Part shown: piece by piece, positions 10,644-17,353 of the stretch | Layout: every line of letters begins with the position of its first letter | Numbering within the stretch: position 1 is the stretch's first letter | The notes under the pieces: model-generated | Database searches by the model: none | Told to the model about the DNA's origin: nothing | The model's input: only the letters and a program-made list of their open reading frames with translations | NCBI GenBank assembly: GCA_003116975.1 | Contig: BGKB01000222.1 | Span: 21,876-85,875 of the forward strand | Source: Aurantiochytrium sp. KH105 | Lineage: Eukaryota > Sar > Bigyra > Thraustochytrida > Thraustochytriidae | Length of the DNA: 64,000 nucleotides | Direction: 5' to 3' | Position numbers and translations under genes: made by a program

Positions 10644-13600
10644 TCACAAGAGCTGAAAGCTACGTGCATACCACGCCAACACACCGCGGGTCTTGGACTT
10701 CAATCGAGGGGCCAAAATTGTAGGGTCAACAGGTCGAAAGGTGACGGTGTAGCGGCTTCCGCGCGTCATTTTAAGAGGAATCGAATGGCACAAGCTTGTC
10801 CACTCGGTGATAAGGCTCCGCGGCTTGACCACTTGCAATGGTTCGGACACTACGACCGCACCAGCTTGCGAGCGCAATTCAATTTCCAGTTGCGGGTTCA
10901 CAGCGTCTTCCTGGCCGCCCCACATGAGTCCCACAATCTTGAGGTACGTTGCGTTCGAGGTGACGTGTCGCCACTGCTCCACACGAGTAGCCGCTGCGGA
11001 GAGGCCTTGCTTGGCGTGCCAGCCATAGGCCATGGTGGATGGTGCCTTTTGCATATGCACGCGCGTTCTGAACTCGTTCATTTGCCCTGTTGGCTTGACG
11101 CGACGCGCATCAACAAATTTGACGAGTCGCACCCATTTGATACATGTGCACCCATACCAGTTGGGCACCACAAGACGAATGGGAAATCCATGGTCAGGCG
11201 GAAGCGGCTCACCATTGAGCTCCGTGGCAAAGAACATCCCCGTGCTCATAACCTGATCCCACGTAAAAACCCAGCTTGCCCCCTTCGCGCCACCTGCGGT
11301 CTTGATGTGCTCGTCGTAGCCCTCGACAAGAATGGCGCGGCCGTCGGAAGCAGTGCCGGCCGCAGGAAGGTAATCGTTCAAGAGGTCACGTACCCTGACG
11401 CCACGAGTCCACTGTGCTTGTGATAAAAGGCCAAAGTGCCACACGCGCGTGTTTCCCGAGCACTCCATGACGCCAGTGCCTACGTGCGATCCAACGTCGT
11501 GAATCTCCTGAGCCGAGAAAGTGTGGAGAATTTGACCACTAACAGACTGCACTTGCACCTTCCACGTCTCCCTCGAAAGCGCCATGGCATCCAGTGTACC
11601 AGGGAGTCCGGTCCGGATGTAAAAGGCCGACGCAGGGGTGGTCTGCAAGAGCGGGGGCGTGAGAAGGGCGAGGTCGACAGAGAGTCGCATGGCTAGCTCT
11701 GAGCTATGGGGGATTCCAAAGGTTTTGCTCCGGCCACGAGCATATTTTTCCGAAAAAGGAGCCACAGCGTCAAGTTCCCACTCGCCCTCCCGTGCAAGCT
11801 GTGTGGGAGGGCCAAAACACGGTTCGCCTTGCACAGGTTGACGAAATACGCGTCGCTTGAGCCCGAGGGAGTCTGTCTCGTCCACATCTTCAACACCGTC
11901 ATCAAGAGGCGCAGACGGCACGATCTCTCCTGCACGAATGGTGCCGATTCGGTACATGCGCGTCGTTTCGATCGCTACATCTGAATGGCCCTGTTCATCG
12001 AATGTTTCCGTAGCATTGTATCCAAGATACGGTAACATGATCTCTTTCCCGCCAGGATGAAAATCAAGCCAACGCGTCACGTCGAGCACATCGCGACCGA
12101 GAACAATCCATGCGTCATGTGCGCTTTGGTGCTTTGCGACCTCTGCAGCCGAAAAAAGTGCACCTGCAGGAGGCTCGCGTTGACCTGAAGCGTGGGAGAG
12201 CGCCCCATTGGAGCTGCTCGTCGCTTCGTGCACATTAGCGAGGTTACTTTTGGATCCGTGCTGAGACGGCGTTGCAGCTTCTGCAGCGGCGTGCCGCGCA
12301 GCGAGTTCGTCCAGAGAAGGACCAAAGTGACCGTACCCAGTCTCTTGCACTTGACCCATGTAGACTGTAGTAGCAGTTCCGAGCACAAGAACGAACGCGA
12401 GAACACGTAAATGGCGACGGCCCCACGTCTTTATGGACGCAGCTGCACGAAAAAGAATGCGTGGCATCAAACTCCACAGTCCGCCAACGAGGAAAAACCA
12501 GGTGCCCACAAATTTTTGCGGGACGAGGAGCAAAAGTGCATTGGCAAAGGGATCTGTGTACCCTGAAAGGAATGCAAAGTTGCTTGCAAACGTGGTGTGG
12601 TGGACATTGTGATGTGCGTGGGAGACAAAGAGCAGATTCAAGAGCGAGGCGGACGCCCACGTCTCGCTCACGTGCGAGTACCAGTGGCCCACGTATGCAA
12701 GCTCAAAGAAGGCAGAGATGGCGAGCGTGCACCAGCGCAGACGAGCATTGGTGCTCGAGGCTGCGAGAAGCACCAATGGAAGGAGAAAGCAGAGCGGCGG
12801 AGCAGACAGCTTGGTTGGGTCAATGTGATGCTCCTGGAAGGAGTCCGCACTTTGACGAAGAATGGGCCATCGATGGAGCACCTCTGGATTATCCAACACG
12901 ACATGAGAGATGGCGCTGCCCAAATCGCCCCATAGATATGCAAAGATAATTGGAAGTGCCATTGTCCACCACCACGACGCGTGTTCTACGGGGACCTTTT
13001 CCTTGTTTGCGCGCTGCAAACGCTGCATGTGGAGATCTTGCCAGTCTCGAACGACGAGAACAGCAAGGTAGAGCAGGATTCCGGCCGTGGTGAAGTCCAG
13101 AAACCCGCCTACAAGATCCGAGAACGAGAAACCCCAATGTGGACGGGCCTCGCTACCTTGAGCGGCATCTTGATTCGAACCATCACAAGATATACTGTCT
13201 GCATCCACGGAAAGTGACGTCAGCGAGTCCGCGCGGGAAGGGTCCGAGAGTTGATCGCTGCGCTGGGGCGGGAAGTCATCGTCGGGTTGCCATACGCAAC
13301 ATGGGTCTCCAAGCTCTATTCCATTCGTCTCGCCATCGCCATCGGAGTCACGTCCACAAAGGCACTCCGACCTGTGAGTTCGTCAACAACAACAACAAAA
13401 AACAACAACAGCGGCAACAATAACAACAGCAACAGCAAAAAGGAGGAAGGAATGTGCCGTAGCCCGGTTTGTGGTTGGTTAGATGAATCATTTGTTTGTC
13501 TGGCTGGTTGGTCTGTCTGTCTGTCCAACGATCATTGTTTATCATCGTTCTCGTCGTCACCCTGACAACATCATAGGTCGACGTACCATTGCCCATCGCA

Positions 13601-13855
13601 AGCAAGGAAGTCAATGCCAAAGGGAGACAAGGGTCCGCCCCCCACGCCCTCGCTATGGCCTGCTGCTGGGAAAGCTCTTCCGTTTGGGATACGTAGCGCG
13701 TTCACCGGAAACCCGAGCGCGGTCGGGCCCTCGGTGGCGACCTTGGCCATGACAAAGACAAGGGCCGTGGCGCGGGCGGCCGGCGAGGTTGCACGGCGTC
13801 TCCGCTGGCGCAACAGCTGCGCGCGCTGCGCACATCCCCTCTCATCTTTGCCCAT
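10644..13855 (-). CDS. Four-module fusion: temptin-like domain, Kua/PEDS1 lipid desaturase, cytochrome b5, sulfite oxidase
   Basis: Exons 13587-13855 and 10644-13371 flank a 215-bp intron (gtacgt...ctcacag), giving 998 residues. Residues 53-125 resemble temptin: RIPNG, a GGGP...FGIDF block across the junction, then DSDGDGETNGIELGDPCCVW. Residues 180-420 form a multi-TM Kua/TMEM189 (plasmanylethanolamine desaturase) domain with all expected histidine clusters: SH at 246, QEHHIDPT near 270-275, HWYSH near 319, HAHHNVHH near 341-348. Residues 492-570 are a cytochrome b5 with both haem ligands (HPGG at 528, His552). Residues 610-850 are a sulfite-oxidase molybdopterin domain with the Mo-ligand Cys727 (MECSGNTR) and NGEPLPPDHGFPIR; the dimerisation domain follows. 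The reading frame is continuous through exon 2, so the fusion does not depend on the intron; only the temptin part does. Electrons from the molybdenum centre could pass through b5 to the di-iron desaturase; that is inference. Confidence 0.85.
13372..13586 (-). other. Intron of the fusion gene, 215 bp
   Basis: The donor is GTACGT after the temptin-domain half encoded by exon 1; the acceptor is CTCACAG. The 3' part carries a TTG-repeat/poly-pyrimidine tract (CAA repeats on the plus strand, 13383-13440). Splicing restores a Trp codon and joins the two halves of the temptin-like motif, which supports the intron. Confidence 0.75.
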
Positions 13856-14362: not shown

Positions 14363-16316
14363 CTAGCGATTCGCACGTCGCATTGCTGCGCGGGTCTCGC
14401 CGAGAATACTGTTTTCTCGCTCGACAACCTCCTCGAGCGAGGGCATGGCCATGAGGTTTGGGTACAGGTGACTGACATTTTGGAAACATGTATGCACGGT
14501 GTCACCGACGATCTTGTACTTGGAGCGAGCAATCATGGGTTTGCCTTTATAGGTATTCCCAAAGGATTGCCAGACGAGCTCACCACGCTCCATCAGCATG
14601 GGGATAACGTGGACAACGACCATCCAAAACTGTAGTGGGTGCAAAAACTTTAGCGTTGGACTCCCTGTCACGGCACCCTCAAGAATTGTTCGTGCAGTGT
14701 GGTCAGAGGAGATGTACATGAAGGTATTGAGGCAGAATATATTTCTGCCGACCGGGTGCGACGGAACGAGGTCAGCGTCTGGAAGGAGGAAAGAGCGTGC
14801 AAAGCGCGGGTCTCTCAGATTGACAGGAAGTCGCGTGACTCTGTCGTCAAAAATGCCTTCAGTCCGTGTTTGATTCGCGATGCCCATGAGACCAAGGAAA
14901 TGGTGCGGGCGAAAGTACTTTGTCATGACGCGAAGGCCTGCAGCGCGTAATGTCAAAGGGATGTGGTCGAGGCGCAAGATGTCTGGGACGCGTTCGATGG
15001 AGGGAATGGCTTCGTCCTGAATGGACTCGTCGAATTCGCAGAGAGAGATGCCCATCGTCTCACACGCCATGACGACGAGGTTTGGATTTTGCGACCATTC
15101 GGTTCTGTTTGCAGGCACGGCGTTTGGGTCAATCCGCATGCTGGTGTTTACGCCAGCCTCGCTGCAGCTCATTCCGTCTTCGCTACTGCTCACGCTGCCC
15201 GCAAAGGGGCTCGGGGCAGCAGCACTTCGTGCTCCGGACTGAGCTCGTTTCCGCTTCGAGTCTCTGGGGTCGGCGATTTCCGCATCCGCGATCGAATATT
15301 CGGCCTTGAGCGGAGATGGCGAGGTGGGGTGAGACAGTGGCGTTGTTGCCGTCTCGTTGAGGTTATAGCCAGAAAGTATGGGCAGAGGCGGAGGCGGGCC
15401 CGGGATGGGCGGGGGCGCGACGCCACCAGGTGCATGATAAGCGTGAGGAAATTGAGGGTGTGGAGGATGAGGAGGATGTTGTTGATGAAGAGCAGGAGGA
15501 GGGGCAGCGCGAGGGGCATTCGGTCGAATATGCGGACCGTTGCCGTCGGAAGTACCCGCGGCGTGGTTTTGCTGCCGAGGGCGCGCAGCGCTGGTGTTGC
15601 GACGGGACTTGCGCATGTTTTCCGGAAGTCGAAGGTTTTCGTGGTAGCCCTGGCCTCGGAAACCGTGCTGGCCAATGTTTATCGGGTCCCCCTTGGCCGT
15701 GGTTCGATCTGCAAAACAGGGCCATACATTTTGTCTGCGCAGCTCGACCAAGACGGCGGCCTCGACCTCGCGAAGAAAGGGTTTTCGCCCGTCGGTGCCA
15801 GTACAGTGTGCTGTGATGGTTTTCCGAAAGGCCTCCTCGGGGCGTTTGAGCTGACCTTGGCGCGTCTCAAGCCACTTGGTAAAGCACGGTTTGGTGAGGA
15901 TTCCGCTTGCGTTGACGTAGACTTCGCCGGTGTGAAGATTGCGAAAAAAAGCGCAAAACTCCATGAAGACGTCGAGCGAGCTGTTTTCGCCGCTCGGGCG
16001 ATAGGGGCTTGGCGCGCGTTCCCAGAGAGGGCTATGCCAAGGGTTGTGGTTGTGCGGAGATTCGCCAGGTCTGCCTGCGTAAGCGTTCGTCGAGCCATGC
16101 GCAAACATGGGCTGCGCGAAGCCGCGGTAGGGAGGGTTTGGGGGCACGGATGTCAGCGGTGCGTCCAGCATGGGCGGCATACCCATGGTGCCTGCGAGGG
16201 AGTCTGCGTCGACGGAGGTGTCCCAGGGGAACTCGAAGTTTTCGGCGACTTCGTATCTGTCGCCGAGATGCGCATACGATTCTGGCGTGCTCTTTTCGCT
16301 TTGGGCGTTGTTGTTG

Positions 16317-16357
<41 letters not shown>

Positions 16358-16831
16358 CATTGGGTTTGCAAAATGGAGATTTTGTTGACGGAAGGCGGGC
16401 TCCTCCTGCCGAAGCAAGATGGGCGAGGCTGGCGGGTGTCGCGGCGACGGTGGCAAATACTGCTGGTGCTGCTGGTGCGAATGCTGCTGCTGCTGCTGCA
16501 TCGTCACTGGTCTTGGCGCCGACAGAGGCGGCGGCGGCGGCAGCGGTCGCGGCGGCAGTGGCAGCGGTGGTGGCGGCAGCGTCGACGCCGTTTGCGGAAA
16601 CTGCGACGTCACAGCGCTCCTCTGTCGGCCGCCGCCATCATCGCGCGTGGCGCTCTCTTCCCGCGCGCTTCCTCCTCCAGCTGCTGCTGCTGCCGCTGAC
16701 GACGCACCTGCTGCTGCTGCCGCTGCGGCGCCTCTTCCTCCGGGCGCCCTGCCTTCCAGGGCCCGCTGCGGCGCCTCCGCCTCCTCTCTCGCGCCTGCGT
16801 ACGGGCCCTGCTTGCCCCGCGCCCACGCCAT
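14363..16831 (-). CDS. Unrecognised protein with low-complexity N-terminal half
   Basis: About 822 residues from the first in-frame ATG (16831). The frame is open further upstream but only in an Arg-run without ATG. I do not recognise a family. The N-terminal third is Ala/Gly-, Pro- and Gln-rich and includes a Ser run followed by an Asn run encoded by CTG/GTT-type repeats near 16312-16356. Two parts look globular. One is near residues 285-400 (VFMEFCAFFRNLHTGEVYVN... KPFLREVEAAVLVELRRQN). The other is the C-terminal 240 residues (NPNLVVMACETMGISLCEFD through FRPHHFLGLMGIANQTRTEG to the end). Between them is a Pro/His-rich linker with a basic RDSKRKRAQ motif that could be a nuclear signal. A regulatory or transcription-associated protein is possible but unsupported. 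Confidence 0.6.
16312..16356. repeat. Trinucleotide repeat encoding Ser/Asn runs
   Basis: GTT repeats followed by GCT repeats on the plus strand lie within the coding region of the minus-strand gene and encode a Ser run followed by an Asn run. The repeat is in frame. Confidence 0.85.
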
Positions 16832-17353
16832 CCGCGCGCGGCCGCGAGCCCTTTCTTGGTTTGTTGTTTCCTCTCTGCTCGCCTCCTTCCTTCCCTCCCT
16901 TCTGCTCCTCGCGCGCCGTCTCCTCAGGCTCCTCCTCCTCGCTCTCGTTCTCGTTGTTGGTCTTCTTCTTCTCCTTCTCCTCCTCCTTCTTCTTCTTCGC
17001 GCCGCTCTTCCACCCTTCGCCCCGCCCGCCAATCAGGAGCTCCTGCGCCCGCTCCCGCTCCCGCGCCTTACCCGCGCCCTCCTCGTCCTCCTCCCCGCCG
17101 CTCTCGCGCGAAAGGGTTCCTCTACGACCCGGAAGAGCAGAGCAGAGCAGAGCAAGCAGACCCGGAAGAGCAGAGCGGAGCAGAGCCGAGACGGACGAGA
17201 CGGCCGAGCCGAGCCGAGACGAGGCAGACGAAGTCGGCCGGGCTCGGGCGCGGGGCCTGGCCGCGAGGCCGCTCCCCTTCCGCGCCCGAGCCGCCCCGCC
17301 TGGACGGGCGAGATTGATGCGGGCGATGTCGAGCCCCGATGTCGAGCCCCAGG

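Follow-up and report, generated by a model that had tools for sequence, protein, structure and literature searches.

A two-exon gene of Aurantiochytrium sp. KH105 joins temptin, Kua-type desaturase, cytochrome b5 and sulfite-oxidase domains in one protein: a possible sulfite-driven lipid desaturase

A 64,000-nucleotide stretch of the genome of the thraustochytrid Aurantiochytrium sp. KH105 (BGKB01000222.1, positions 21,876 to 85,875; hereafter, the window) belongs to contig C222 of an assembly of 76 Mb in 367 contigs. On its minus strand, at positions 10644-13855 of the window, a gene of two exons encodes a protein of 998 residues, on which Pfam recognizes, after splicing, the domains Temptin_C, Lipid_desat, Cyt-b5 and Oxidored_molyb, in this order. 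The existence of this four-domain, single-frame gene is confirmed. Its best explanation would be a self-contained lipid desaturase of the Kua superfamily that is driven by sulfite through its own molybdenum (Mo) domain and its own cytochrome b5; this reading is a tentative one, to which a probability of about 0.42 is given on the basis of the sequence. At each of the three redox centres, the ligands are present.

Exon 1 (13587..13855, minus strand) starts with the ATG at 13855, in the context CACCATGG, and encodes an Arg-rich N-terminal segment (residues 1-53) and the first part of the temptin domain. It is followed by an intron of 215 bases (13372..13586, minus strand; GTACGT...CAG) and by exon 2 (10644..13371, minus strand), where the remainder of temptin, the Kua domain, cytochrome b5, the Mo domain and the stop codon are found in a single open frame. 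This frame runs for 912 codons without a stop (13382-10644, minus strand); the chance of this is about 4e-15 at the frame's own base composition, compared with about 9% for 66 open codons alone. The assembly looks diploid, since loci occur as near-identical pairs on different contigs, and the second haplotype of the gene (contig C367, L002) agrees with the first in reading frame, splice sites and stop codon; the ATG context, the frame and the GT donor of exon 1 are equally unchanged. Across the 912 codons, the haplotypes share 97% amino-acid identity and differ at 54 synonymous and 35 non-synonymous positions, corresponding to a ratio of non-synonymous to synonymous rates (dN/dS) of 0.20; coding indels are absent and several are found in the intron. 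The fusion gene is under purifying selection between the two haplotypes, with dN/dS values of 0.20 for temptin, 0.18 for Kua, 0.12 for the Mo domain and 0.15 for the C-terminal part; the first 53 residues are less constrained (0.54), and the cytochrome b5 part shows one synonymous and no amino-acid difference. The splice is supported independently by the temptin score, which rises from 43.9 bits on exon 2 alone to 76.7 bits once the exons are joined; exon 1 by itself gives a sub-threshold temptin match of 23.6 bits at C222:35413-35574.

The initial annotation had assigned the Kua, cytochrome b5 and sulfite-oxidase modules to one uninterrupted frame of exon 2, and this is borne out by the Pfam matches, the 912 codons and the two haplotypes. 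An assembly error or a chance frame is very unlikely, and these two readings, together with that of a split gene, were set aside because both haplotypes agree. Least probable among the explanations weighed here is an error of the gene model by which two products would arise through an unseen intron, an internal promoter or polyadenylation within the long exon. It could draw on the variability of the linkers after Kua, which are even less constrained than the first 53 residues and where the differences are, in small numbers, three non-synonymous and one synonymous between Kua and cytochrome b5 and three and none between cytochrome b5 and the Mo domain. However, no stop codon occurs between Kua and cytochrome b5 in either haplotype, so that Kua could be made as a protein of its own only with an additional, unseen splice; the linker from the last membrane stretch to cytochrome b5 (residues 431-494; 12159..12350, minus strand) is open in both haplotypes, and the frame is kept without an indel.

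Cytochrome b5 (residues 498-568; 11937..12149, minus strand) is located directly after the desaturase and directly before the Mo domain. It matches Pfam at 5.9e-17 on the spliced protein, and both axial haem ligands, H528 and H552, are present, in line with the initial annotation. Its best solved relative is cytochrome b5 type B (62.6 bits), compared with 22.4 bits for the cytochrome b5 of chicken sulfite oxidase; within the genome, two other cytochrome b5 places score 52-54 bits, that of nitrate reductase 30-31 bits and that of the organism's own sulfite oxidase (SUOX) 23 bits. In yeast desaturases of the Ole1 type, cytochrome b5 is also fused to a di-iron membrane desaturase; the protein described here differs in having Kua in place of the classic fatty-acid desaturase family and a Mo domain behind cytochrome b5.

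The Oxidored_molyb domain (PF00174; residues 689-846; 11103..11576, minus strand) matches at 8.1e-29 and contains the predicted Mo ligand C727 as well as R732 and W744, with R676 located just upstream of the Pfam match. In the Mo alignment (A3), which comprises six rows, namely, the fusion, the own SUOX and four bacterial sulfite oxidases (L027 was added in the Mo tree only), C727 is invariant, as are R676 and W744 (6/6 rows each), and R732 is found in five of the six rows; the molybdenum Cys of the initial annotation is thus upheld. At residues 862-998 (10647..11057, minus strand), the sulfite-oxidase fold closes with a diverged C-terminal part that includes R985 and aligns to its end despite the absence of a match to the Mo-co dimerisation domain (PF03404), which the own SUOX and nitrate reductase match at 1e-38 or better. 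Identity of the Mo domain amounts to 24-26% with the four bacterial sulfite oxidases and to 21% with the own SUOX, and in the Mo tree of nine rows the fusion is found on a long, weakly placed branch. A further frame of the genome, of 443 residues (L017, around G000:C44:851859-852332), has Oxidored_molyb as its only Pfam match and forms a very long branch in this tree. Among the NCBIfam families, the best match is to SorT (2.2e-18; 66.3 bits versus a cut-off of 570), followed by SoxC (56.4 versus 420 bits) and SorA (52.4 versus 600 bits); MsrP is matched weakly, at 9.4e-6 and below its cut-off.

In nitrate reductase, cytochrome b5 supplies the Mo site, and the same direction may be envisaged here, with a cytochrome b5 that is reduced elsewhere feeding the Mo domain for the reduction of some oxidized substrate, as in enzymes of the nitrate reductase or MsrP type. 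The weak MsrP match and the loss of the Tyr of the sulfite pocket would agree with such a reverse flow, but it is improbable, given that the three best NCBIfam matches, all of them below their cut-offs, are sulfite dehydrogenases and that the residues R676, W744 and, in all rows but one, R732 are kept. Eukaryotic SUOX of the b5 type has the same succession of cytochrome b5 and a Mo domain, and shares with the fusion the Cys ligand and most residues of the sulfite pocket; the fusion differs by the added temptin and Kua domains, a cytochrome b5 closer to type B, the lost pocket Tyr and an unrecognized dimer domain. The own nitrate reductase, encoded at a separate locus with Mo, dimer, cytochrome b5 and flavin adenine dinucleotide (FAD) domains, has the Mo domain before cytochrome b5 and a FAD reductase; the fusion has the order b5-Mo and a desaturase instead of the reductase, no FAD or NAD reductase domain being found in it with Pfam. 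Eukaryotic nitrate reductase likewise fuses a sulfite-oxidase Mo domain with cytochrome b5, according to a section of PMC6400420.

The Kua membrane region (residues 180-428; 12357..13103, minus strand) has six assigned hydrophobic stretches and includes the Lipid_desat core (residues 235-365; 12546..12938, minus strand) with H246, H271, H272, H319, H323, H344, H347 and H348. These eight universal His residues are invariant across an alignment of 12 rows, fusion included, which contains both fusion haplotypes and, for PEDS1 and FAD4, presumed sequences. The fusion also carries the Asp (D250) and the Phe (F268) that are required for PEDS1, as judged from the residues listed in a part of PMC9131029. 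The match to Lipid_desat (PF10520) is a borderline one (1.1e-5 on the spliced protein with hmmscan), since against a curated cut-off of 26.4 bits the whole-protein scores are 26.0 for exon 2, 25.9 for the spliced protein and 24.1 for haplotype 2; in a six-frame search of the genome, the scores were 28.1, and 26.3 (30.1 when the neighbours within its frame are counted), flagged as above the cut-off. A Leptospiraceae Kua reaches 163 bits, and a search of PDB with the Kua part gave no sequence relative at E values up to 10. A ninth His, which is typical of plasmalogen-forming members and present in nine of the 12 rows, is absent, along with the segment around it, from the two fusion haplotypes; the remaining row without it is the presumed FAD4. 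In the Kua tree (12 rows; L042, which yielded no usable frame, was left out), the fusion again occupies a long, weakly placed branch. Hence, the initial annotation of a histidine-complete Kua/PEDS1 enzyme is valid for the Kua superfamily and for the eight His residues, but the label PEDS1 is not established, because the domain is divergent and lacks the ninth His of PEDS1-type members; the score of 25.9 bits and reversed loop charges weaken it further. A divergent desaturase of the Kua superfamily rather than PEDS1 is therefore the predicted identity. The eight His residues, the Asp and the Phe are common to Kua/CarF/PEDS1 (TMEM189), FAD4 and the fusion, which differs from all of these by extra C-terminal hydrophobic stretches, the reversed loop charges and the fused cytochrome b5 and Mo domains.

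That the Kua domain is a former desaturase, kept as a mere membrane anchor of an enzyme for which only sulfite oxidation counts, is quite unlikely. Its divergence, the borderline Pfam score, the missing segment with the ninth His and loop charges reversed relative to the Leptospiraceae Kua would fit this explanation; still, an anchor would need neither the eight universal His residues nor the Asp and Phe of PEDS1, and no dN/dS as low as 0.18. The gene is the sole Kua locus found in the assembly by the six-frame search, with one place per haplotype, although genes split by introns could escape such a search; the organism should, therefore, depend on it for any lipid of the Kua type.

The temptin domain (residues 54-135) matches at 2.1e-21 and 76.7 bits on the spliced protein, well covered from position 9 to 97 of the 98 profile positions and above the curated cut-off of 27 bits. 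Its second part, which is Cys-rich and includes a DSDGDGETNG loop, is located at 13236..13371 (minus strand), so that the domain described in the initial annotation is present but split over both exons instead of being confined to exon 1. Nor is temptin on a membrane enzyme as unusual as had been supposed. A 624-residue frame of the same genome (L019, around G000:C64:14305-14592) joins temptin, both copper type II monooxygenase domains and cytochrome b561; it likewise carries an N-terminal temptin on a membrane redox protein and differs from the fusion in its catalytic domains. Within residues 1-50, ten Lys/Arg and three Asp/Glu are found, and such an Arg-rich start could either act as a presequence or be a signal peptide of poor quality.

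For electrons to be handed over, all modules would have to be located on one side of the membrane. The Kyte-Doolittle scale gives five hydrophobic peaks in the Kua region; a further stretch, the fourth of the six (residues 301-319), comes only from a second scale with presumed values, on which residues 325-343 score almost as well. Without this fourth stretch, the two His clusters would not come to lie together. Between the second His cluster and cytochrome b5 there are two hydrophobic stretches, both of them Kyte-Doolittle peaks, so that these two parts should share a membrane side in either orientation. In the six-stretch model, temptin, both His clusters, cytochrome b5 and the Mo domain would lie on one side, whatever the orientation. 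With regard to the latter, Lys/Arg residues in the internal loops number three on the His side versus ten on the other (3 versus 9 in haplotype 2), as opposed to 14 versus 1 with the termini, and 4 versus 1 in the internal loops, of the Leptospiraceae Kua that served as control (L024). The fusion thus appears to be turned towards the non-cytosolic side, which is a weak indication from charges and one control protein, and opposite to CarF, whose His residues are cytoplasmic according to a portion of PMC9131029; four membrane helices with every His residue on the cytoplasmic side would be expected of a plasmalogen-forming PEDS1/CarF enzyme. A non-cytosolic face would suit the Cys-rich temptin and agree with the location of animal sulfite oxidase in the intermembrane space.

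Under the reading as a sulfite-driven desaturase, the Mo domain would oxidize sulfite to sulfate and thereby gain two electrons, which the tethered cytochrome b5, moving on flexible linkers, would ferry singly to the Kua di-iron site. With O2, which would be reduced to water, this site would introduce a single double bond into a lipid of the membrane. As two electrons on either side match, one sulfite would be consumed per double bond and NAD(P)H would not be involved. Temptin, held together by disulfide bonds, would lie on the same face of the membrane and might bind a partner or a surface. Metal loading, electron path, substrate, compartment and stoichiometry are all inferred. Kua-type PEDS1 requires O2 and cytochrome b5, as stated in an excerpt of PMC9131029, and a precedent is seen in nitrate reductase, where the fusion of a sulfite oxidase with cytochrome b5 and a reductase gave a new enzyme, as presented in part of PMC6400420. 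A cytochrome b5 shared by both enzymes, as proposed initially, is plausible. An ether lipid (plasmanyl) is a possible substrate because AGPS is present, and an ether-lipid route in the organism is likely: a 733-residue frame (L034, around G000:C57:242313-243152) matches alkyl-DHAP synthase AGPS (PDB 4bby) at 4.3e-137. An acyl substrate, of the FAD4 type or another, is no less possible. More specific, and on the unlikely side, is a version in which the NAD(P)H-independent transfer from sulfite to O2 would take place on the lumenal or intermembrane face, with all four modules on that side and inverted with respect to CarF, and in which desaturation would report or dispose of sulfite.

The strongest rival, though unlikely in itself, is that the two activities are co-located and uncoupled. 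NADH-b5 reductase would feed the desaturase via cytochrome b5, the electrons that the Mo domain gains by oxidizing sulfite would pass via cytochrome b5 to cytochrome c or O2, and the fusion would provide location. Located in the intermembrane space of mitochondria, animal sulfite oxidase has cytochrome c as its electron acceptor (from a part of PMC10574614). In the fusion, the first 50 residues resemble a presequence in their charges, and the loop charges would be in keeping with a non-cytosolic or intermembrane face. On the other hand, the largest amphipathic moment of the N-terminus is below that of the own SUOX (0.38 versus 0.56), and a cytochrome b5 that is tethered with a redox domain on either side would need to bypass the nearer acceptor. 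Moreover, the assembly already holds a canonical b5-SUOX, the N-terminus of which reads like a presequence, and a nitrate reductase, both confirmed by Pfam; because of this separate SUOX, the ordinary removal of sulfite need not use the fusion gene.

Several points weigh against a sulfite-driven desaturase. NADH-b5 reductase could equally well reduce the cytochrome b5 of the fusion. In the Mo domain, R732 is kept in only five of the six rows, and R985 is aligned with an Arg in only three of the five others (the own SUOX and two of the four bacterial enzymes). The Tyr of the animal sulfite pocket, whose residues and animal numbering are as we presume them to be, is replaced by Ala788 according to the alignment, or by Lys786 when the match is made by eye on the GAS motif; among the bacterial enzymes, one row has Y at this position and the other three have V, M and F. 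All four NCBIfam matches fall far below the cut-offs, and the C-terminal 143 residues gave no Pfam match to PF03404 at E values up to 1. On the desaturase side, the Kua score is slightly below the cut-off, the ninth His and its segment are missing from both haplotypes, and the fourth membrane stretch is weak. Furthermore, Mo-cofactor enzymes are virtually absent from the secretory pathway, according to PMC5817353, which conflicts with the non-cytosolic face suggested by the loop charges. Finally, in the one phylum and two loci covered, no gene neighbourhood in bacteria spoke for the coupling.

Those loci came from searches for relatives. With the Kua pattern, one of 54 stretches from prokaryote contigs was confirmed, namely, a Leptospiraceae Kua; b5-Mo was not a query there. 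In the phylum of the Leptospiraceae, 19 Kua places were found, spread over 16 of 198 genomes; each lies in an open frame of 200-362 residues, too short for such a fusion. The surroundings of two divergent Kua genes (L043, 13.5 kb, and L044, on a 4.5-kb contig) yielded no cytochrome b5 or Mo match better than an E value of 0.3. The Kua of L043 (6575-7309, minus strand; 47.6 bits) is 38% identical to the fusion Kua over 58 residues, and its AFLNGITNP stretch resembles AFLSGYTDP of the fusion; the tree does not group the two. Among plasmids, 249 records match the fusion query (P0001), none covering 80% of it, and the 30 listed all match the Mo part; the Kua part alone had no plasmid match at E values up to 1, and a search with a presumed PEDS1 stretch gave a single match, to a Legionella lytica plasmid. 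In viral contigs, two stretches matched the pattern of the exon-2 protein and none was confirmed. Upstream of the gene, an 889-residue open frame (14363-17032, minus strand) has no Pfam match at E values up to 0.01; its coding end aligns well with the second haplotype.

In the literature, a fusion of a desaturase with a sulfite oxidase was not found among the titles and abstract beginnings of open-access papers, a scope that leaves most subscription journals outside, and none of the four papers found on plasmalogen and thraustochytrids was to the point by its title. The main text of PMC6147048, which lists new molybdoenzyme fusions, does not contain the word "desaturase". As far as these searches reach, the domains are known individually and their combination is undescribed, in agreement with the initial annotation.

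Membrane desaturases usually draw their electrons from NAD(P)H via cytochrome b5 reductase, or from ferredoxin. The idea of a coupling is open to a test with a single gene and a single protein. If it is true, a built-in sulfite oxidase would constitute a new electron source for a desaturase and would link sulfur metabolism with membrane lipids in this organism.

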